DNA of 34,694 nt from a virus. This document shows, piece by piece, positions 5,339 to 34,694 of the stretch. The stretch covers positions 1 to 34,694 of the IMG/VR virus record IMGVR_UViG_3300043431_000259. One strand, 5' to 3'. Every line of letters begins with the position of its first letter. Position 1 is the first letter of the stretch. The position numbers and the translations under genes are program-made. The notes below the pieces were generated by a model. That model saw only the letters and a list, made by a program, of their open reading frames with translations, did no database searches and was not told the DNA's origin.

Positions 5339-6616
5339 CTAGTTCCCCGCCTGCAGCGGGTTGCCGCAGAACGTGTTGACCACCTTGAGCTGCACCGGCT
5401 TGGTCGCCGTCATCCCGGTGGGCGCGGCGGCCGGCTGCATGCACTCGAACTCCAGCTGGTGATCGAGGATCCCGTCCTTGATCGGCGCCTCGGCCAGCGT
5501 GTAGCGCATCAGCGGGATTTCGAAGAACATCGTCCGGTACGAGGCCCCCGAGATCAGCGGCCCGGTGATGGTGATGTCCATCTTCGCCGTGGTCCCCGCC
5601 TCCCACGCGGTCAGGTGCGTGGCGGCCTCGAAGCGCGGCAGGGTGCCCTTGAACGTGATGAGCGCCGGGCCGTCGTTGCTCGGCTCGTCGATCTCGTTGT
5701 CCGTGCTGCCGACCCCGTAGACGCCCTTGAGCGGGCGCTTGGCCGAGAGTTCCGCTTCGGAGAATCGCACGGCGTCCCCGGCGTCCAGCGCGTCGGCGAT
5801 CAGGTTCATGCGGCTGACCAGATGCGAGGTCATGGCGCGCGAGGAATCCAGCGCCGTCCAGGCGGTGACGGCCGTGTTCACCGCGGAGGCGAGGGTCTTG
5901 TCGTTGGCCAGCAGGTCGAGCACGATCTCGATGGGCTTGCCGGTGCCCCACTTGAGCGTGAAGCCGGTCACCTTGCAGCTGGTGAGCTCCTCCATGCTGA
6001 TGCCGTTCCAGACGCATGCGGTTCCGTAGATCCCTTCGAGCGTGTCCGCGAGGGTGTAGGTGCGCTCGGCGATCCCGGCCGAGAGGTTGCCCTGCGTGGT
6101 CGAGGAGGTCGCGAACGGGATGGCCCCCACCCACGTCAGCGTGTCGGCGGTGTTGCTCACGATGCGCCTGGTCTGCCCGACGTTGGTCGGGTTGCCGGCG
6201 TCCGCGTCACAGGTCCAGTACTTCCCGGCGTGCTCGTTGACGGTCCAGCTCGCGCCGGTCTTGAGCAGCGTCGTGGTGCTTCCCGCGCCGGTGCCGTCGG
6301 TGGCCACGGGGTCGGTGTACGTCGGGGTGGTGCTGGCGCCGAAGAAGGCCGCGAGCATCGCGTCGAACCCCTCGTAGCGCATGTACCCCTGCCAGTCGCC
6401 GGCGGCGGTGATTTCGCCCAGGTCGCCGGTGGTGGCGAATCCGCCCGTGCCGAGCGAATCGTCGGTCAGAAACGGCCGGGTCTTCTTGAACCCGAGCGGG
6501 CGGTGAAGCACCTGATCCCGGGCGCCGACGGGGATCGCCGTGCCCCACGGGTAGGTGGCAATCGGGAGCGCCATGCGAAACGCGAACTTGGTATCTACTC
6601 CTGCGGGTCTGACCAT
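5339..6616 (-). CDS. Major tail tube protein
   Basis: A 425-residue protein just before the tail chaperone. The central pattern GDWQGYMRYEGFDAMLAAFF and the beta-rich body around it fit the long tail tube family found in siphoviruses. It has no signal peptide, unlike the six genes upstream of it. An AAGGAG site stands 8 bases before the ATG. Its leader (6625-6679) is shared with the major capsid gene, consistent with very high expression of both. Confidence 0.85.
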   Translation of the reverse strand: MVRPAGVDTKFAFRMALPIATYPWGTAIPVGARDQVLHRPLGFKKTRPFLTDDSLGTGGFATTGDLGEITAAGDWQGYMRYEGFDAMLAAFFGASTTPTYTDPVATDGTGAGSTTTLLKTGASWTVNEHAGKYWTCDADAGNPTNVGQTRRIVSNTADTLTWVGAIPFATSSTTQGNLSAGIAERTYTLADTLEGIYGTACVWNGISMEELTSCKVTGFTLKWGTGKPIEIVLDLLANDKTLASAVNTAVTAWTALDSSRAMTSHLVSRMNLIADALDAGDAVRFSEAELSAKRPLKGVYGVGSTDNEIDEPSNDGPALITFKGTLPRFEAATHLTAWEAGTTAKMDITITGPLISGASYRTMFFEIPLMRYTLAEAPIKDGILDHQLEFECMQPAAAPTGMTATKPVQLKVVNTFCGNPLQAGN

Positions 6617-6624
6617 CTGCTCAT

Positions 6625-6679
6625 CTCCTTCTGCCGCTCTCCTCTACCGGCTCAGTGAGTCGGCACAGGACAACGGCGG
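6625..6679 (-). promoter_or_regulatory. Shared leader element with hairpin, tail tube copy
   Basis: These 55 bp lie between the stop of the 749-residue gene and the tail tube ATG. They closely match 15769-15827, ahead of the major capsid gene. On the plus strand both share CTCCTTCTGCC, TCTCCTCT and ACAGGACAACGG, the first of which carries the ribosome binding site. Between the blocks the sequences differ, yet each can fold into a hairpin ending in CCGG, here with a CTC/GAG inner stem. A conserved structured leader is likely; whether it acts on promoter activity, RNA stability or translation is unknown. Confidence 0.8.
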
Positions 6680-6686
6680 CTGGTGG

Positions 6687-14544: not shown

Positions 14545-15762
14545 TTACGCCCAGGGCGTCCTGATGATCCGGCCCGCGTAGCGCGGCACCGCCATGACCG
14601 CGCCCGCGTTGATGTCACAGGCCCAGTTGTTCTGAAGGTAGCCGCCGAAGTTGGTGACGCGGATGTCCAGGTTCAGCTCGGCATCGGAGACGTAGGACTC
14701 GACGTAGCCGGCGCCCTGCTCGGGCAGGCGGCGCGAGGCGGTGACCAGCGCCATCGGGTGCATTGCGAGTCCGCCGATCCCGTGGGTCGCGAGGAAGGTC
14801 AGGGCGGCGTCGTTGGGCAGCAGGGCCGGCAGCGGCGGGTAGACGTTCACGTCCTGCGCCGCGCCGTTTACCAGCGTGACATCCGCGAAGCTCTGCTCGC
14901 CGATCAGTCCCGTGCTCGCCACGGAGAGCTTGCCGACGATGCGGTGCTTCTGCGCACTGCCCGCGATCGTGAAGACAGCTCCCTTGACCACGGTTCCGGC
15001 GCCGGCGGCGGTCACCAGGGAGAGCACGTGCGCGTTGGCCGCGTGCTCGCCGTTGAGCTTCACGCCCGTCGCGGTGCCCACGGTGTGGTTGACGTTGGAG
15101 AAGTACGAGGACTCCTTGATCGTCCCGAAGCCGTGCATCGGGATGAGCTGGCCGGTGCGCAGGGCCTCCGCGCTGCCGACGTTCGAGAACCCGACGATCG
15201 CGGCGGTGTTGAGCAGGCTGCCGTAGACCGTGGAGTCGACCAGCATCACGCGCGAGCCGTCGTCCGGGGCGTAGCAGCCCTGAGCGCGGTCGCCGATCAT
15301 CGCGCGCCCACCGGTGATCACGGTCCCGTCGTTCGGCACCGCGTTGACCGCGCCGTAGTAGTTGAAGGTCGAGTTGATGATGTCCGGGAGCATGAGCGCC
15401 TGGAGCTTCTCGAACACGTTGGCGGCCATGATCCGCACCACCATCGGAATGTCGCCGGTCTTCATCGCCTGCGCCACGGTCTGGTTGTCCAGCTGGATCG
15501 CGTCGTCGACGTGATGCATCGGCACCAGGCCGGAGGTTTTCTTGAGCTTGCCGGTGGGCGGCGTCCCGGCGATCGCGATGGCGCGCGCCGAGGTCATCGG
15601 CTCGTAGAACTCGACCATCGCGCCGGCGTGCGGATCGGTGCCGCCGAGCTTCATCGCCGGCTGGCCGGCGTACCGGGTGATCGGATTGAGACCACGAAGC
15701 ACGCTCGCCACGGAGAGCGCGAGATACTTCGCCTGTACTTTGATGTCGCTGACGTCTGCCAT
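14545..15762 (-). CDS. Major capsid protein (P22 coat-like)
   Basis: A 405-residue protein directly after the scaffold gene. It contains GVKLNGEHAANAHVL and VVKGAVFTIAGS, reminiscent of the insertion domain of P22-type coat proteins. The HK97-fold body is inferred from size and position. The start follows a strong ribosome binding site and the shared hairpin leader at 15769-15827. An abundant product is expected. Confidence 0.8.
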   Translation of the reverse strand: MADVSDIKVQAKYLALSVASVLRGLNPITRYAGQPAMKLGGTDPHAGAMVEFYEPMTSARAIAIAGTPPTGKLKKTSGLVPMHHVDDAIQLDNQTVAQAMKTGDIPMVVRIMAANVFEKLQALMLPDIINSTFNYYGAVNAVPNDGTVITGGRAMIGDRAQGCYAPDDGSRVMLVDSTVYGSLLNTAAIVGFSNVGSAEALRTGQLIPMHGFGTIKESSYFSNVNHTVGTATGVKLNGEHAANAHVLSLVTAAGAGTVVKGAVFTIAGSAQKHRIVGKLSVASTGLIGEQSFADVTLVNGAAQDVNVYPPLPALLPNDAALTFLATHGIGGLAMHPMALVTASRRLPEQGAGYVESYVSDAELNLDIRVTNFGGYLQNNWACDINAGAVMAVPRYAGRIIRTPWA

Positions 15763-15768
15763 TTCCTA

Positions 15769-15827
15769 CTCCTTCTGCCCCCTCTCCTCTGCCGGCACGT
15801 CGAATGCCGGTACAGGACAACGGGCGG
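15769..15827 (-). promoter_or_regulatory. Shared leader element with hairpin, capsid copy
   Basis: These 59 bp precede the capsid ATG and match 6625-6679 ahead of the tail tube gene. The hairpin here is a 6-bp stem, CCGGCA with TGCCGG (15792-15797 and 15805-15810), with a 7-base loop. Flanking blocks CTCCTTCTGCC, TCTCCTCT and ACAGGACAACGG are the same in both copies. The arms differ in sequence but still pair, so the folded form seems to be what is kept. Confidence 0.8.
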
Positions 15828-20986: not shown

Positions 20987-21217
20987 TCACGCTGTTTCTG
21001 ATTCTCCTACGGGTTGTTTACGGTTAATTACGGTTCCTTCCGGGTGTTCACGGGTGTTTATTTTCGTCACGACGAACCAGCGGTGTCCGCCCTCGTCCTT
21101 TTCTGCCGCGACCTTGCCCTTTTCGATCCAAAGCCACACGGTTTCGGTGCTCACCCCCCGCAGCTTCGCGAACTGGTGCACACGCAGGCGCACGACGGTA
21201 GCCGCGCCGTCGGTCAC
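20987..21217 (-). CDS. Small HTH DNA-binding protein before the terminase genes
   Basis: A 76-residue protein with a GTG start that overlaps the RusA stop and has GGAGG 8 bases upstream. Residues about 11-50 form a MerR/excisionase-type winged HTH: VHQFAKLRGVSTETVWLWIE, then EKDEGGHRWFVV. Its size, fold type and place next to TerS resemble small DNA-recognising terminase components (lambda Nu1 has this fold). A regulatory role is also possible. The five 10-bp repeats lie inside its 3' end. Confidence 0.72.
   Translation of the reverse strand: MTDGAATVVRLRVHQFAKLRGVSTETVWLWIEKGKVAAEKDEGGHRWFVVTKINTREHPEGTVINRKQPVGESETA
21010..21060. repeat. Five helically phased 10-bp repeats
   Basis: Units start at 21010, 21021, 21031, 21041 and 21051: CGGGTTGTTTA, CGGTTAATTA, CGGTTCCTTC, CGGGTGTTCA and CGGGTGTTTA. 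They share CGG-K-T and usually an end TTA or TCA. The spacing is one helical turn. They sit in the 3' end of the HTH gene and 36 bp before the small terminase start, so they are candidates for a cos/pac recognition site or an operator. Confidence 0.6.
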
Positions 21218-21735
21218 CGGGCCGTCCTCCGCCCGCCGCACGTCAGCGCGCCGCGGAACTCCTGGCTGCACACCGCCGACTCGTCGACGATGAACGACCG
21301 TTGCCCAGCCCCGACCTCCCGCAGCACGATCTCCGTCCGCGGCGTCACGCAGTAGCGCTTGCGCACGAGCACGTCCGTGATCTGGCAATCATCGCCATAG
21401 AGCACCCCGTTGAGCGCGTCGCAGGCGAGCTTCCCGAGGTTGTCCCAATCCGGTGCCCCCACGGGCCGCAGGATGCCCGCCAGCTTAAGTGCGCGGTCCT
21501 TGCGCGAGCACTTGTTCTGCACCGCCCGGTAGAACACCAACTCGGCCTCGATAGCGCCCTCGAGCTTCTTCGCCATGCCGGCCCGGAGCATCTGCTGCGC
21601 CACCTCGCGGATACTCGCCTCTCCCTCAACGGTTTCCTCCGGCGTGTACGACTGCATGAAGGCCCCGCGCCTACGATGGCGGGCCCGCTGCTTGGCGACC
21701 GGGTTGCCGTAGACGATCAATCGCACCTCGCTCAT
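21214..21735 (-). CDS. rusA: RusA-family Holliday junction resolvase
   Basis: A 173-residue protein with the RusA pattern: the opening YGNPVAKQRARH, and the catalytic aspartates in GAPDWDN (96 and 98) followed by VLYGDDCQI (115 or 116). RusA proteins cut four-way DNA junctions. In phages they resolve replication or recombination intermediates before packaging. The C-terminal 35 residues extend beyond the usual domain. The start overlaps the stop before it. Confidence 0.88.
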   Translation of the reverse strand: MSEVRLIVYGNPVAKQRARHRRRGAFMQSYTPEETVEGEASIREVAQQMLRAGMAKKLEGAIEAELVFYRAVQNKCSRKDRALKLAGILRPVGAPDWDNLGKLACDALNGVLYGDDCQITDVLVRKRYCVTPRTEIVLREVGAGQRSFIVDESAVCSQEFRGALTCGGRRTAR

Positions 21736-22244
21736 GCAACCACCTCCTCGAACGCGCCCTTCTCGATCTTCACGGCGAACAAGGGGGTTTGCTCCAGATC
21801 AGCGTCAAGCTCATCAACGATCCTCCCGCCCCACTTCCTGCGCACCACGGTCCCGTCGCCCTCGCGCAGACTGGCCTCGGCACACCCAAGAATCGCGTTC
21901 CTCCGCGGGTGATCTTTCGTCCCGCAAATCTCCATCATCCGTTTGAGCCGGTGCAGATTCTGGAACGACTCTTCCGGCGTCCATTCGGCGCCCGTGTCGG
22001 GGTTGATGAACGTCTTCTGCGACTGCCCGGAGCTGCGGTCGACGTAGGCCAACACGGCGCGCGGGAGGTTGCGCGGGAAGGCGTCCAGATCGTTCACCAG
22101 CGATTGAACGATCTTCGTCCACTTCGGGCCGGGGATCTCGGCTAGATGCCCGTACCATGCATTTGCCACGGCCTCTTTCGGGTAGTTCGACGAGAGCGAA
22201 TCGCAGAGGTGGGACAACCCGGAATCAAACGCGGTGCGGTTCAT
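21732..22244 (-). CDS. Protein of unknown function in the replication module
   Basis: A 170-residue soluble protein coupled to the DUF1376 gene by a four-base overlap. Segments such as AWYGHLAEIPGPKWTKIV and DAFPRNLPRAVLAY recall helicase loader or lambda P-like helpers that accompany an initiator, but I cannot place it in a family. It may assist origin loading. Confidence 0.65.
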   Translation of the reverse strand: MNRTAFDSGLSHLCDSLSSNYPKEAVANAWYGHLAEIPGPKWTKIVQSLVNDLDAFPRNLPRAVLAYVDRSSGQSQKTFINPDTGAEWTPEESFQNLHRLKRMMEICGTKDHPRRNAILGCAEASLREGDGTVVRRKWGGRIVDELDADLEQTPLFAVKIEKGAFEEVVA

Positions 22245-22999
22245 TCGACCACCTTCCTTTTCGGGAAAAACGCAGCCTTTTCCTCGGGGGTGACCTTCGG
22301 GCCTGTCGCTGCCGGTGGCTCGTCAGTCCAGAGCCGGTCGAAGAGATACTTCTCGGCGCTCGGGACGAACTTGCCCTCGTCCTTTGTCCACTGATCGCTT
22401 TCGAGTTGCCACGACAGGGCCTCGAAGATCCTCGCGGCATCCCCGTTTTGGACCATCGAAACCCATGCCCGACAGGCGGCGTCACGGCCTGATTTGCGGG
22501 GGTAGATTTTCCAGAAATCAGGGAACTCTCCCCCTGTAGAGGGGCTGGTGGGGGGGGTGGTTGGTGGTGGTAAAGGTGGAGGTGGAGGTGGAGGGTTGAC
22601 TTCCGGTACCCCATCCGGTTGCAACCGAAAGTCAACCGCTGTTGAACCACGGTTGAACCGCTGTTGGCGTTTGGCTTCAGCCGAAAGCCTACCCTTGCGC
22701 GACTGATCGGCGATGAACTCATCGCGCTTTTCGATCTCACGGTCACACCTTGGGTTGTGCCGAAACCCGTCCTTGGAAACCTTGAAAAACTCGTCGGCGA
22801 CAACCGCCACGGCGTCACGCTCGAGCTTGGTCTGGCACCCGACCATCCGCACGAGCGCCGGAAGGTCGGCCGGCAAGGGCTTCCCGGTGGCGTAGTAGCA
22901 GTCCATCAACAGGTTGTAGGCCCCGTGCTGCGTCACGGTCAGGTGTGCCGTGTCGCGCCTGTAATCGCCGGGATACTTGGCGTACCAGTTGTCGCCCAT
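22241..22999 (-). CDS. Replication initiator-like protein (DUF1376)
   Basis: A 252-residue protein with an N-terminal DUF1376 domain (WYAKYPGDYRRDTAHLT, then QHGAYNLLMDCYYATG). A proline-rich linker follows at about 135-160. The C-terminus (FWKIYPRKSGRDAACRAW, EGKFVPSAEKYLFDRLW) is the one found in phage replication organisers. The iteron-like repeats lie inside the gene, as in the lambda O gene. It has no ATPase motif and may recruit the host helicase. Confidence 0.82.
   Translation of the reverse strand: MGDNWYAKYPGDYRRDTAHLTVTQHGAYNLLMDCYYATGKPLPADLPALVRMVGCQTKLERDAVAVVADEFFKVSKDGFRHNPRCDREIEKRDEFIADQSRKGRLSAEAKRQQRFNRGSTAVDFRLQPDGVPEVNPPPPPPPLPPPTTPPTSPSTGGEFPDFWKIYPRKSGRDAACRAWVSMVQNGDAARIFEALSWQLESDQWTKDEGKFVPSAEKYLFDRLWTDEPPAATGPKVTPEEKAAFFPKRKVVE
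22548..22666. other. Candidate replication origin: iterons next to a G-rich tract
   Basis: On the plus strand AACCGCTGTTG occurs at 22634-22644 and 22656-22666, 22 bp apart (two helical turns). CGGTTGCAACCG at 22616-22627 is a perfect palindrome. The half-site AACCG/CGGTT appears five times within about 45 bp. Next to it, 22548-22595 is a run of GG and GGG tracts that could form a G-quadruplex and encodes the proline linker on the other strand. The arrangement resembles the lambda origin inside O. No AT-rich unwinding element was seen. Confidence 0.5.
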
Positions 23000-23007
23000 C
23001 CGAGCCC

Positions 23008-23697
23008 CTACCCCTTCGCCCCAACCGCAATCATCACGTCCGAGTCGCTCTCGGCCGCCCGGATCACCGCCAGCATCGTGGCCATCTTCCGGCAGGTCAC
23101 CAGCAACCCGACCTCAGCGGCCCCCAAGGAGAAGGCGAGGTCGCGCGCGGTGAGCGGGACGAAGGTGCGGCCGGTGGGATTAGGAACATTGGTCATGGCC
23201 CACGATCCGACCTCCTCGTGCTTGCCGTCGAGCCTGAGGCCTGACAGGGGGTCACGTGCGGGCCCCGGCTTGGCGATCACCTTCTCAGCCTTGCTCGCCC
23301 CCGCACTCTTCGCCTTCGCCGCGTCGTGGGCCTTCGTGGCGCTCTGCTGGCCGGCGCGCTTCGCGTTGAACGCCTTGTTCATCGCCGCCTTGTTGCACTT
23401 CTTGCAGTAGGCGCCCGGATGGCTCTTGCTCTGGTAGAGTTTCTCTCCTTCTCCACCGCATTTCTGACACTTCCCGATCTCTGCTGGTTGTCCTGCGGCC
23501 ATCGTCTTTCCCTCCTCGCGCGCCGCCGGTGGCGCTGCTGGTTTCGCGGTCTTCCTCCCCGGCTTCTGGTAATTCCCCGGGCGCCCTGTCTCGTTGCTCA
23601 GATCAACCGGCCCAGAGCACCCCTCGCCGCAAGAGGCAATCCCGGGCGTGCCGGGGCCGTAGCAGTCCACGCGCGGCTCGTAGCGGCAGACGCTCAT
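23008..23697 (-). CDS. Zinc-ribbon protein of unknown function
   Basis: A protein of 229 residues from the ATG at 23697, or 164 from the ATG at 23502, which has a stronger AGGAGGG site. In the long form the first 30 residues contain four cysteines. Near residues 78-100 a zinc-finger type pattern CQKC-x17-CKKC is visible. The middle is Ala/Lys-rich. The C-terminal 90 residues have no recognised motif. Both starts may be used. Confidence 0.68.
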   Translation of the reverse strand: MSVCRYEPRVDCYGPGTPGIASCGEGCSGPVDLSNETGRPGNYQKPGRKTAKPAAPPAAREEGKTMAAGQPAEIGKCQKCGGEGEKLYQSKSHPGAYCKKCNKAAMNKAFNAKRAGQQSATKAHDAAKAKSAGASKAEKVIAKPGPARDPLSGLRLDGKHEEVGSWAMTNVPNPTGRTFVPLTARDLAFSLGAAEVGLLVTCRKMATMLAVIRAAESDSDVMIAVGAKG

Positions 23698-23906
23698 GAG
23701 GCGCACTCTCCACGGCACACAAGCCGTCCCCTCTCCTGCCGCGTCTCCCCCGGCCCCCGCTCGGCCCTGCACCTGCAGCAGATCGCCACCGCAGGCTCGC
23801 GGCGCGCCCCAGGTGCCGCAGGTGCGCTCTGGCGCGCGGGACGGGTCGAGGGGGCGTCCGGGTGCGGACGGGCGGCGCGGTGGCGGCGGTCTCGAGGGGC
23901 GCTCAA
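23694..23906 (-). CDS. Small Cys-rich protein
   Basis: A 70-residue protein joined to both neighbours by ATGA overlaps, which is the main reason for calling it. The end holds a zinc-binding type pattern CCRC-x16-CRGEC. The first half is rich in Arg, Pro and Ala. A small zinc-ribbon regulator or nucleic-acid binder is plausible. Confidence 0.6.
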   Translation of the reverse strand: MSAPRDRRHRAARPHPDAPSTRPARQSAPAAPGARREPAVAICCRCRAERGPGETRQERGRLVCRGECAS

Positions 23907-24133
23907 AACGGAGCCTCCCCTCTCGCCACCTCGTCATAACTCGGCACGCTCTCGCCCTGCCCATCGCGCGGCTTGCTCGCCTTGAGCTCGATCCGCTCCG
24001 ATCCGTTGGCCGAGGTGCGCGGGAAGCCGACGACCTCCTGGCCGTTGAGGGTGCCGGTGTAGTAGGTCTTTCCGCCCTTGCTTTCCTTTTTGAAGAGGAC
24101 GCCGATCTCGTCTGGGGATTTCTCGAAGGCCAT
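23903..24133 (-). CDS. Small OB-fold-like protein, possible ssDNA-binding
   Basis: A 76-residue protein just after RecT. The pattern IGVLFKKESKGGKTYYTGTL, then EVVGFPR, is that of small phage proteins (DUF736-like) with an OB-like beta structure. In this setting it may bind single-stranded DNA with RecT and the YqaJ exonuclease. Function is inferred from layout and neighbours. Confidence 0.65.
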   Translation of the reverse strand: MAFEKSPDEIGVLFKKESKGGKTYYTGTLNGQEVVGFPRTSANGSERIELKASKPRDGQGESVPSYDEVARGEAPF

Positions 24134-24137
24134 GGCG

Positions 24138-25127
24138 CTACTTCGCCTCCTCGGCCTTCACCAGCTCCTTGAGCGACTCCACCAGAGAGCGCAGCGCCGG
24201 AGCCCCCTCGCGCATCGCGGCGTTTGCCTTGTCCTCGCAAGCGCGGGTCGGGCGGCCCAGCTTCTCGCCCAGGGCCACGGCTTCGTCCCACAGGTTGTCG
24301 AGTTCGGGGTCGGGCTCGGGGGTCGGGCTCGCCTTCACCTTGAGTTTGTCGAGCACCTTCTCGACGGCGTTAGGGCCGGGATTGCCGTCCGTGACCTCCT
24401 CGGCGTCGAGGTACTCGGGCTCCGCGTCCAGTTCCATGCGGCTGCTCTGGTCATTGATCGCCGCGGCCTGCATCTGCACCGACATCGGCCCCCAGGTCTG
24501 GAGCGCGTTCTTCACGACCGTCTTGAGGCACATCTCGTCCTCGTGCGTCTTCCATGGGGAGTTGCCCTGCCTGACGCTCTGGCTGTACCGCTGCGCGTGC
24601 GCAAGGCACTTCTCGCGGCTCCAGGCCACCACCTTCTTGAATCCGTTTTGCAGCTCCCACGCGACCACGAAGGCCACCCCGGGCTTGCTGTCGTCGATTT
24701 CCGAAACGTCGAGCACCGGCTCCCCGAACTCATCGAACCCCTTGAGCGCCTCGGCGTTGACGCGGAAAGCGTTGAGGCGGCGGTACTGACCAGAGCGCAG
24801 GGCAAGCTGCACGATCCCTTTCCACCCGATCTGGAACGAGCCGACGCCCTTGTAGGGGACGACGAAGGCGAACCCGAGGTTCTTCTGAATCGGCAGGTCG
24901 AGGGTCGCGGCGACGAAGGCGGCGGCGAGCACCGACTTCGGGTCACAGGCGGCGAGGTACTTCTCGGCGGTCAGGGCGGTCAGGCTCCCGAGGAACGCGG
25001 CGGCCTTGTCGCGCCCCAGAACGTCATCGAACCGCTGACGATACCCGGGCATGGCAACGAGGGACTTCACGGTTTCGCGCTTGGCGACTGCGGTTTCCAT
25101 TTCCTTCACGGCGTCGGTCATGGTCAT
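24138..25127 (-). CDS. recT: RecT-family single-strand annealing protein
   Basis: A 329-residue protein. The RecT core is clear: residues 64-115 read SVLAAAFVAATLDLPIQKN, then GFAFVVPYKG and FQIGWKGIVQLALRSGQYR. With the exonuclease next to it, this is a two-part recombination system (exonuclease trims, RecT anneals). The C-terminus has an acidic low-complexity stretch. The ATG at 25121 has better spacing to GGAGG than the one at 25127. Confidence 0.92.
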   Translation of the reverse strand: MTMTDAVKEMETAVAKRETVKSLVAMPGYRQRFDDVLGRDKAAAFLGSLTALTAEKYLAACDPKSVLAAAFVAATLDLPIQKNLGFAFVVPYKGVGSFQIGWKGIVQLALRSGQYRRLNAFRVNAEALKGFDEFGEPVLDVSEIDDSKPGVAFVVAWELQNGFKKVVAWSREKCLAHAQRYSQSVRQGNSPWKTHEDEMCLKTVVKNALQTWGPMSVQMQAAAINDQSSRMELDAEPEYLDAEEVTDGNPGPNAVEKVLDKLKVKASPTPEPDPELDNLWDEAVALGEKLGRPTRACEDKANAAMREGAPALRSLVESLKELVKAEEAK

Positions 25128-26056
25128 TTCCTCCCGTTTGAGTTCGAGAAAAGGAACCGGCGGCTGCCGGCCTTGGTGGTCGTGTGCGCGTCTGCGATTG
25201 CCTGTCCATCAGCCCCGAGGAGTTCGATCATGTGAGCCCCGGCAGCCTTCCAATCGGTGGCGCGGGTGTCCTTCGCTTTCTTCCAGGTGGCGACGCCCTT
25301 GATCCCCTCGGCGTCACCGATCATCTGCATGAGTTGGCTCTTGAGCGTCTCCATGTCGCCCTCGGCCGCGTCGAGGCGTTGTTTGATCGCGGGATAGAGC
25401 GAGATCAGTTCCAGGGCTTCGGGTGTCGGCTCGAGCAGCGGCTTTCGGTTCTCGGGGAACTGCTGCCGCAACCACGCCCGCGAGGACTCGCTCCCGTCCA
25501 CGGCCGGCGGGCGCTGCGGGATGATGTGGTCACGCCAGAACTTCTCGGCCATCTCGCGCAGGGCTTCGTACAACTCGGAGGAAAACCGAAGCGGGAAGAT
25601 TTCGATGTTCGCCCCGATGGTCGCGGCCAGATCCCACCGCTGCCGCTTCGTCAGACCCATGTACCAAGTGCATTGCACAAGGTGCGGCTCGGGAACCTCG
25701 TCGGTCCCTGGCTCCCCGTACCCTGTTGCGTAGAGCGGAGCCTTTGCCTCGACGCCGCGCTCCCCGCCGACAACCAGGCCGTCAGGAGTGCCGCCGCAGA
25801 TGCCGTCCGTGAACAGCGTGAAGGGTGGCAGCGTCTCGAGTTCGACGCCCTCGCGCTCGGAGTAGACACGCAGGATCTCCGGCTCCAGGGCGCGGCCGCG
25901 GGCCATGTTCCAGTTGTCGGGCTGCTCGGGAATCAGGCCGAGTTTGTCGAGGTACACGTCGAGCGGGCCGCCGTAGGGCGACAAGCCGGCGATCTTGGCG
26001 ATATCGCTCCCGCCGACGAGCATTTTTCTGCGAGCGAGCCATTCGGCGCGGGTCAT
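25124..26056 (-). CDS. YqaJ-family exonuclease (phage recombinase)
   Basis: A protein of 310 residues from the ATG at 26056, which overlaps the upstream stop. YqaJ/lambda-exonuclease motifs are in order: GGSDIAKIAGLSPYGG (15-30), ALEPEILRVY with Glu 60, GGTPDGLV with Asp 92, GVEAKAP with Glu 103 and Lys 105, and a Gln at 128 in HLVQCTWYM. These make the two-metal nuclease site. The enzyme degrades one strand of duplex DNA and hands it to RecT. A helical C-terminal part (about 225-285) follows. Confidence 0.9.
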   Translation of the reverse strand: MTRAEWLARRKMLVGGSDIAKIAGLSPYGGPLDVYLDKLGLIPEQPDNWNMARGRALEPEILRVYSEREGVELETLPPFTLFTDGICGGTPDGLVVGGERGVEAKAPLYATGYGEPGTDEVPEPHLVQCTWYMGLTKRQRWDLAATIGANIEIFPLRFSSELYEALREMAEKFWRDHIIPQRPPAVDGSESSRAWLRQQFPENRKPLLEPTPEALELISLYPAIKQRLDAAEGDMETLKSQLMQMIGDAEGIKGVATWKKAKDTRATDWKAAGAHMIELLGADGQAIADAHTTTKAGSRRFLFSNSNGRK

Positions 26057-26169
26057 GACTTCCCCGCCATCTGCGCCCACACCCACCGCATCACCGGGCA
26101 GCGATTGAGCGTCGGCTGCGGGATGCTCGGCTCAAGGGCGCTCCAGTAGCCGAGGTATCCGTCGTTCAT
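26053..26169 (-). CDS. Very small protein (38 residues) before the exonuclease
   Basis: Its start has a long GGAGGAGGAGGAG site 4 to 8 bases upstream and its stop overlaps the exonuclease start. It has several tryptophans (GYWSAL, RWVWAQM) and is hydrophobic in its second half. No family recognised. Good site and coupling make it likely to be real. Confidence 0.55.
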   Translation of the reverse strand: MNDGYLGYWSALEPSIPQPTLNRCPVMRWVWAQMAGKS

Positions 26170-30153: not shown

Positions 30154-31143
30154 ATGCCGAGCCTAAGAGAGAGAAACGGCCGCTGGTACCTCTCGGTTAG
30201 CCGTCACGGCAAGCGCCGGGAGGTGGCAGTCGGGAAGGACGAACGCCTGGCTGGTCTGCGCCTGGCCGAAGAGACGGCCGCGATTGAACGGCAGAAGTCC
30301 GGATTCTTCGTCGAGCGCCCCGCCACCCTGCAGGAGTCCATCGACCGCTGGCTCGCCACCCGCGGCGCCACCCTGGCCCCCTCGACCCTCACCCGCTCCC
30401 GGATCTACGCCGACAACGCCCTGCGCCTGCTCGACGGCGATTGCCCCCTGCAGGCCGACGACGTGCGCCGGTACCAGGGGGCCCGCCTGCAGGCCGGGGC
30501 CAAGGCCAAGACGGTCAACAACGAAGTGGCGTGGCTGCAGCAGGTCGTCAGGCGCGAGGACGGGACGCTGCCCTGGGGGCGGCCGGTGAAGAAACTCAAG
30601 GTGCGCGATGCCCGGCCGATCCGGTGGCTGACGAGCGAGGAGGTGCGCCGGCTGTTGTCCGCGGCGATCCCCCGGGCCCGCCCCTACCTGCTCGGCTACC
30701 TGTTCACCGGCGCCCGCCGGGAGGAGTTGCTCGCCGTGCGCTGGCGCGACGTGGACCTGGTGCGCGGGGTGATCCGGCTCTCGAGCGCGAAGACGGCCGG
30801 CAGGACCGCCGGGGACTCGCACCGCACCGTCCCGGTCCACCCCGACCTGAAACCCGTCCTGGAGGCCGCCAGGGCCGCAGGGCAGTCCTCCCCGTGGCCG
30901 GCGCCAACGGATCAGCACAGGGTAAGGACGTGGGTGGTGACGGCTGCCGAGCGCGCCGGGATCCGACCGCGGCCGACGCTGCACGATCTGCGGCACACCT
31001 TCGCCAGCCATCTGGTTCAGGCCGGGGTGTCGCTCTACGTGGTCGGGCGGCTGCTGGGGCATACCAACCCGGCGACGACGGCGATCTATTCTCACCTGGC
31101 GGTGGAATCGCTGGATCGGGCCGTCGGCCTGTTGCGGTACTAA
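30154..31143 (+). CDS. int: Tyrosine integrase
   Basis: A 329-residue site-specific recombinase with an N-terminal arm-binding domain (NGRWYLSVSRHGKRREV), a helical core-binding domain (about 58-150) and a catalytic domain. Catalytic residues are visible: Arg 188 (TGARREEL), Lys 213 (SSAK), His 277 and Arg 280 (LHDLRHTF), His 303 (LLGHTNP) and Tyr 312 (IYSHL). It catalyses integration at the tRNA 3' end via the adjacent attP. No clear ribosome binding site precedes the ATG, which suggests low expression. Confidence 0.95.
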   Translation: MPSLRERNGRWYLSVSRHGKRREVAVGKDERLAGLRLAEETAAIERQKSGFFVERPATLQESIDRWLATRGATLAPSTLTRSRIYADNALRLLDGDCPLQADDVRRYQGARLQAGAKAKTVNNEVAWLQQVVRREDGTLPWGRPVKKLKVRDARPIRWLTSEEVRRLLSAAIPRARPYLLGYLFTGARREELLAVRWRDVDLVRGVIRLSSAKTAGRTAGDSHRTVPVHPDLKPVLEAARAAGQSSPWPAPTDQHRVRTWVVTAAERAGIRPRPTLHDLRHTFASHLVQAGVSLYVVGRLLGHTNPATTAIYSHLAVESLDRAVGLLRY

Positions 31144-33507: not shown

Positions 33508-34694
33508 TTACGTCCACCATTCGCGCGCGGTGAAGGCGCACGTGAATTTGTTGGGCCGCTGTAGCCGTTCGATCCACCACGAGCGACCGGTGTAGATGTC
33601 GTCGGTGATCGTGATCGTCTGCCCGACCTGCAAATCCCCGTGCTGCCAGAACGTCGAAAAAGTCACGGTCAGCAGGGGCGTTGCCACCTCGAGCAGCAGA
33701 TGCGCCAGAACGTGCGCCGCCATCGTTGCAGAGCGCACGCATGGCAGGTTGTAGGTCGTCGCGTAGGTGCCGTACTTCGCGACACTGGCCGCACTGGTCG
33801 CCGCAGCCGATGCGAGGTAACCGCTAGACACCTCGCGGGCCGAGTTGCCGGAATAGTTTGGGGAGAACAGCGCCGTCAGGTCGTTGAAGACGCTGCGCAT
33901 CGAGTCCTTGGCGTAGACGTACCGCGAGCCCTCGCCGGCCAGATCGTCGCGCGTGAGCGTGCGCACCGCTGTCGGGGCGGCATCCGGCGTGTAGTGGTGG
34001 TAATACTTTCCACCCAGGAACCGCGTGGTCGAGCGCGAGCAAAAGCCGATAGTCTTAAGCGTATCGTGGTTGCTCTGCTGCGGAACGATGAACCCGAGCT
34101 TGTACCCGCCGGAGATCGCCGCGGCGTGCAGCGTCCCGGCAGCGGCGAACGAGGTGTCATCGATCTCGGCAAGGGTCGCGCCCAGGTAATTGACCAGGAA
34201 GTGCTTGATGACCCAATCCGGCCGTTCGATCAGGTTGCCGGCGCCACCGTACTCGCCGTCGGGGTCGTAGTGCCACGCCGCGCTCACACAGACGCGCTCG
34301 CCGATCGCCACGCGGGCGGTGGACTTGCCGCCCGAGTCGTTCGCGTTGTCAGCCAACACCGACACCCGCCGCTCGATGTATTCGAGGTTGGCGTCTCCCG
34401 ATTCCACGACAATGGCGAGATGGGTCGCCCACGTCCCGCCGGGTATCGTGCCGAGGCGGATGCCGCCGGTGCCATCGACAGGGACGATGATTTTCTCCCG
34501 GCTCACGAGCGTCGTGCCGTTGAGCCCGAGCAGCCAGACGGTGGCGCCGTAGTTGCTGTAGATGCTTCCGTAGGCGCTCATCTCGACGATGGTGCCCAGG
34601 TCGGTGCTGTCGAAAGTCGCCCACGCGATGTTCTGCCCCGCCGTGCCCAGAGGGACGCCTTCGGTCCCTTCGATCGCGCCGATGCGCTCGTCCG
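33508..34694 (-). CDS. Tail-tip/baseplate hub-like protein, C-terminal part (begins at 1236)
   Basis: The C-terminal 310 residues, read from 34440 to the stop at 33508, complete the 722-residue protein whose N-terminus is at 1236. An internal ATG at 34581 begins a shorter frame and is not the real start. Near the middle, PDWVIKHFLVNYLGA is a helix pattern found in tail-tip hub proteins, and the last part is beta-rich (VGQTITITDDIYTGRSWWIE). It is followed by the lysis genes. Confidence 0.8.
   Translation of the reverse strand, partial: DERIGAIEGTEGVPLGTAGQNIAWATFDSTDLGTIVEMSAYGSIYSNYGATVWLLGLNGTTLVSREKIIVPVDGTGGIRLGTIPGGTWATHLAIVVESGDANLEYIERRVSVLADNANDSGGKSTARVAIGERVCVSAAWHYDPDGEYGGAGNLIERPDWVIKHFLVNYLGATLAEIDDTSFAAAGTLHAAAISGGYKLGFIVPQQSNHDTLKTIGFCSRSTTRFLGGKYYHHYTPDAAPTAVRTLTRDDLAGEGSRYVYAKDSMRSVFNDLTALFSPNYSGNSAREVSSGYLASAAATSAASVAKYGTYATTYNLPCVRSATMAAHVLAHLLLEVATPLLTVTFSTFWQHGDLQVGQTITITDDIYTGRSWWIERLQRPNKFTCAFTAREWWT
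34441..34694. repeat. Terminal direct repeat, right copy
   Basis: This is the second copy of bases 1-254, with one silent difference at 34567. Joining the copies gives a circle of 34,440 bp. The repeat lies wholly inside the coding sequence of the 722-residue tail-tip protein, so it is not a specialised end such as a cos site. Confidence 0.95.

Follow-up and report, generated by a model that had tools for sequence, protein, structure and literature searches.

Tailed phages need their capsid and tail tube proteins in amounts far above those of the operon neighbours, and how such unequal yields arise from one late message is often unexplained. In T7, whose late mRNAs have intergenic RNase III hairpins, the gene 10 leader places a hairpin upstream of the capsid gene and its strong ribosome site within a late polycistronic message. 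Ribosomal protein leaders and the translational operators of phages (T4 gp32/gp43, MS2 coat) are systems with a known regulator, which usually covers the ribosome site. The Cluster K mycobacteriophages carry repeats at start sites, termed SAS and ESAS, whose function is unproven (PMC3203893, PMC12699233). The SAS is a 13-bp GGGATAGGAGCCC found at start codons (PMC3203893). There are 11-19 sites per genome, limited to the non-structural half, and half of them are immediately preceded by imperfect 17-bp inverted repeats around a variable spacer, which makes them ESAS (PMC3203893, PMC12699233).

The stretch of DNA analysed here (the window) is the whole of a 34.7 kb virus record, with the structural genes on the minus strand. 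The initial annotation had proposed that two of these genes share a leader, and both leaders were found where it had placed them, on the minus strand. The features are as follows; R2 is a model of the element that was built without the window sequences.

15769..15827, minus strand: structured leader of the major capsid gene (about 56 nt; helix 15825-15777; model positions 1-56), matched by R2 at E 1.3e-8
15769..15774, minus strand: AAGGAG, the Shine-Dalgarno sequence of the capsid gene, left unpaired by the predicted fold
14545..15762, minus strand: gene of the major capsid (head) protein, 405 aa (PHROG 283, E 9.4e-23)
6625..6680, minus strand: structured leader of the tail tube gene (about 56 nt; helix 6677-6633), matched by R2 at E 2.6e-17
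6625..6630, minus strand: AAGGAG, the Shine-Dalgarno sequence of the tail tube gene, left unpaired by the predicted fold
5339..6616, minus strand: gene of the tail tube protein, 425 aa (PF18906 Phage_tube_2, E 3.3e-13; PHROG 290)The window is a temperate phage carrying its own recombination genes, with a tyrosine integrase, a RusA resolvase, RecT, a RecE/YqaJ exonuclease and a DUF1376 primosomal protein encoded at 30154-31143 (plus strand) and 21214-26086 (minus strand). Its ends (1-254 and 34441-34694) form a direct repeat of 254 bases, such as is seen when a genome is circular or circularly permuted; the repeat was 100% identical in one comparison, and an exact-string test failed.

The two leaders have in common CCGTTGTCCTGT, AGAGGAGAG and GGCAGAAGGAG, 32 bases in all, together with CCG, which agrees with the at least 31 identical bases in three blocks that had been counted before. 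Identity between the capsid and tail tube elements was 0.88, compared with a maximum of 0.71 among 100 shuffles; identities computed for the flanks allowed free end gaps and were given no weight. The hairpin noted in the initial annotation was present as well, although its extent had been greatly underestimated: only the inner stem had been recognized, whereas the flanks also pair with each other (UCCU/AGGA and GCCGU/GCGGC), so that the shared blocks make up the two sides of a single long hairpin. Its outer helix has six pairs, its middle helix four and its inner stem nine, with one G·G mismatch on either side of the middle helix, giving 19 pairs in a helix of 21 positions whose length is nearly constant across copies. 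The loop of 3-5 nt is free in sequence, and so is the inner stem, which including the loop keeps a length of 20-23 nt. Folding z-scores against dinucleotide shuffles were -4.3 and -4.2 for the two window leaders. A strong Shine-Dalgarno sequence lies a few bases 3ʹ of the hairpin, and in most copies about 13-17 nt separate the end of the helix from the start codon, a distance that corresponds to the neighbourhood of the 5ʹ edge of an initiating ribosome. In the window leaders, the element begins about 2-6 bases past the upstream stop codon and extends to the Shine-Dalgarno sequence, and therefore fills the intergenic gap.

A search for the element in related phages, as the initial annotation had suggested, recovered it in three further IMG/VR records. 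A first pattern scan of IMG/VR revealed the same leader at the tail tube genes of two other records, the capsid genes of which also carry it, and a scan with the two middle pairs left free added a ninth copy, at the capsid gene of record G005, with the middle helix UCCC/GGGA. Each of the seven further copies precedes a capsid or tail tube homologue, so that the nine copies in four virus records account for the leaders of five out of five capsid genes and four out of five tail tube genes of the set. The tail tube gene of G005 lacks the hairpin (L062, 1440-1494), although the capsid gene of G005 carries one. Model scans of the whole records (window, G001 and G002) placed a single copy ahead of every capsid gene and every tail tube gene and none before any other type of gene; the remaining matches were reverse-strand shadows and two weak ones near E = 1. 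Capsid identity within the set falls to about 23% in the alignment, and that of the tail tubes to about 40%.

Record G002 (IMGVR_UViG_3300042876_000365, 59 kb) contains two capsid and two tail tube genes and a single terminase match. Its first ~590 bases hold the end of a portal gene that is 93-96% identical to the portal near 38 kb (L016 1-587 against L063 7707-8256), and the record could have arisen by the joining of assemblies, from tandem prophages or by true duplication. A TGA reported inside its terminase gene turned out to be a stop codon upstream of that gene.

The window capsid as a single-protein query found no relative in IMG/VR, tblastn with the capsid and tail tube proteins found nothing in the phage collection, and the leader DNA matched nothing in the phage and plasmid collections. 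When the capsid was searched for in two phyla, that to which a Neorhizobium belongs (398 genomes) and that of a Geodermatophilaceae MAG (396 genomes), one distant relative only was obtained. Sixteen matches in a scan of bacterial and archaeal genomes were rejected, as they were without the fold and the gene context and had model scores at or near chance; L001, L010, L011, L020, L021, L024 and L056-L059 were likewise chance matches. The element was absent from the distant capsid relatives L066-L082 and L086. One of these, L070 (about 25% identical), has another upstream hairpin at 1591-1665, with arms TTCTGGG/CCCAGAA and unrelated in sequence.

Compensating changes in the arms had been claimed from the two window copies, which on their own are thin evidence; the seven further copies established them. 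In a nine-copy alignment fitted to the structure, 93.6% of the pair cells were standard pairs. Both sides had changed in 9 of the 19 pairs, amounting to 18 such cells, against a shuffle mean of 4.8; none of 500 shuffles reached the observed count, but since the copies are kin these counts are not probabilities, and the control with slid partners (at most 7 both-side-changed cells) and the held-out test are safer guides. An independent MAFFT alignment of eight copies gave the same picture of covariation, and RNAalifold predicted the same fold from it without a structure being supplied. In addition to the two window leaders, R2 matched the leader of G005 (E 1.3e-10), and its sole other match was the shadow that the tail tube leader casts on the reverse strand. 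The relatives thus keep the pairing, the loss of which had been named beforehand as evidence against the element. A fold with covariation in relatives, the general mark of a structured cis-regulatory mRNA leader, is present here, and the covariation, the held-out model and the relatives strongly support the proposal that the capsid and tail tube genes begin with a structured RNA element. We consider it almost certain that a conserved RNA leader exists. That the similarity is due to chance or to a recent duplication of the leader would be in keeping with the window holding two copies only, but the E-values of the independent model speak against this explanation and it is already refuted by the relatives, with capsids as low as about 23% identical and different arms, and we regard it as having practically no chance of being right.

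The inverted repeat with conserved arms, present at two gene starts, could also be expected of an element acting at the DNA level, such as a promoter, an operator or a recombination linker. However, G·U wobbles were kept at two pairs in 7-8 of the 9 copies, the sense strand folded better than the antisense strand in all nine, and the orientation of the element and its position relative to the Shine-Dalgarno sequence were fixed, which together argue that it acts as RNA and not as DNA. On the coding strand, the leaders showed neither a promoter-like nor a terminator-like site; instead of the GC hairpin and following T run of an intrinsic terminator, the stem is followed by the purine-rich AGAAGGAG. 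A role at the DNA level is accordingly very improbable.

All nine copies share UGUCnnGU on the left arm and AGnnGAGA on the right, both G·G mismatches included, while the nn pairs of the middle helix vary with complementarity kept. Three types of middle helix occur, all complementary: UCCU/AGGA, UCGG/CCGA (two copies) and UCCC/GGGA (one copy). The pattern looks as though what is recognized were a helix of fixed length whose middle is marked. Masking of the Shine-Dalgarno sequence through alternative pairing with UCCU, as in a switch, was considered and rejected, as the alternative fold is not conserved: UCCU is replaced at this place by UCGG/CCGA in two copies and by UCCC/GGGA in another.

It is likely that the leader has a general role in raising or setting how much capsid and tail tube protein is made, whereas no single mechanism is given more than about an even chance. 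Among 23 starts of the window, the two leaders had the most stable upstream 61 nt (-30.6 and -30.7, the others -9.3 to -25.8), and they were among those with the stronger Shine-Dalgarno sequences and the most open start regions. The predicted folds are compatible with an exposed ribosome site. The mechanism that we favour, with roughly even confidence, is that of a cis-acting structured leader in the polycistronic late mRNA, which would insulate and stabilise a strong ribosome site, serve a host factor and boost the two proteins. A nearly continuous hairpin occupies the gap from the upstream stop codon to the strong Shine-Dalgarno sequence of either gene, and could keep upstream RNA away from the ribosome site and uncouple it from the preceding gene. 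The host factor served by the hairpin might be the ribosome itself or an RNase that generates a new 5ʹ end and protects it, and the outcome would be yields of the capsid and tail tube proteins above those of their neighbours. No non-structural gene of the window was matched in all relatives by similarity searches of these partial records, which leans towards a host factor of this kind. On the other hand, the tail tube gene of G005 manages without the hairpin, and the conservation of the invariant core UGUCnnGU/AGnnGAGA goes beyond what simple stabilisation or insulation by a stem would require, suggesting that the core is recognized specifically.

Such recognition would be accounted for if an RNA-binding protein of the phage or the host bound the four-pair middle helix between the G·G mismatches and repressed or activated both genes jointly. 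G·G mismatches widen the deep groove in known protein sites, for instance the HIV Rev site, and here the G·G positions, the adjoining U-A and C-G pairs and the flanking bases are invariant in nine out of nine copies while the inner stem and loop vary freely. However, the two middle pairs change freely provided that pairing holds, no common gene for a candidate regulator was found in the partial records, and joint autoregulation by two unrelated proteins through one site would be difficult; we therefore hold a protein site to be possible but rather unlikely. A bolder version, in which a new class of phage RNA has its two spaced invariant G·G mismatches read by one dedicated factor in both leaders, thereby coupling capsid and tail tube output, appears slightly more doubtful still; if it were true, heads and tails would be made in proportion. 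About equally doubtful is a site for a double-strand nuclease of the RNase III type, whose cleavage would split the late transcript and release separate messages for capsid and tail tube. As the most specific form of the cis-acting leader that we favour, this reading overlaps with it. The late mRNAs of T7 are cut at intergenic hairpins, and a helix of nearly constant length but free sequence, with 21 positions or about two turns, would fit such a site; the strict conservation of the middle bases, though, exceeds what such sites need.

A small group of related phages keeps here a real, uncatalogued control element, which probably governs the output of their most needed proteins. An RNA of 56 nt kept across strongly diverged capsids makes the question of unequal yields testable, and it may serve as a portable leader for GC-rich hosts.

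No family of Rfam 15 matched the element above its gathering cut-off, and no description of structured capsid-gene leaders was found in the part of the literature that was searched, which lay outside the main structured-RNA survey. The nearest described phage feature is the SAS/ESAS, which resembles the leader in being repeated at the ribosome sites of several genes with inverted repeats upstream. However, the start regions of the leaders read AGAAGGAG or AAAGGAG and not GGGATAGGAGCCC, the 17-bp repeats of the ESAS are unlike the leader hairpin, and in place of many sites in the non-structural half there are two leaders per phage, at the capsid and tail tube genes only. The T7 gene 10 leader has the same placement of a hairpin and a strong ribosome site; no relation in sequence was shown, and it is not shared with a tail tube gene. 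Ribosomal protein leaders and the T4 gp32/gp43 and MS2 coat operators have in common with our leader a conserved irregular hairpin by the ribosome site, but, in contrast to these systems, the ribosome site of the leader stays open in the predicted fold.
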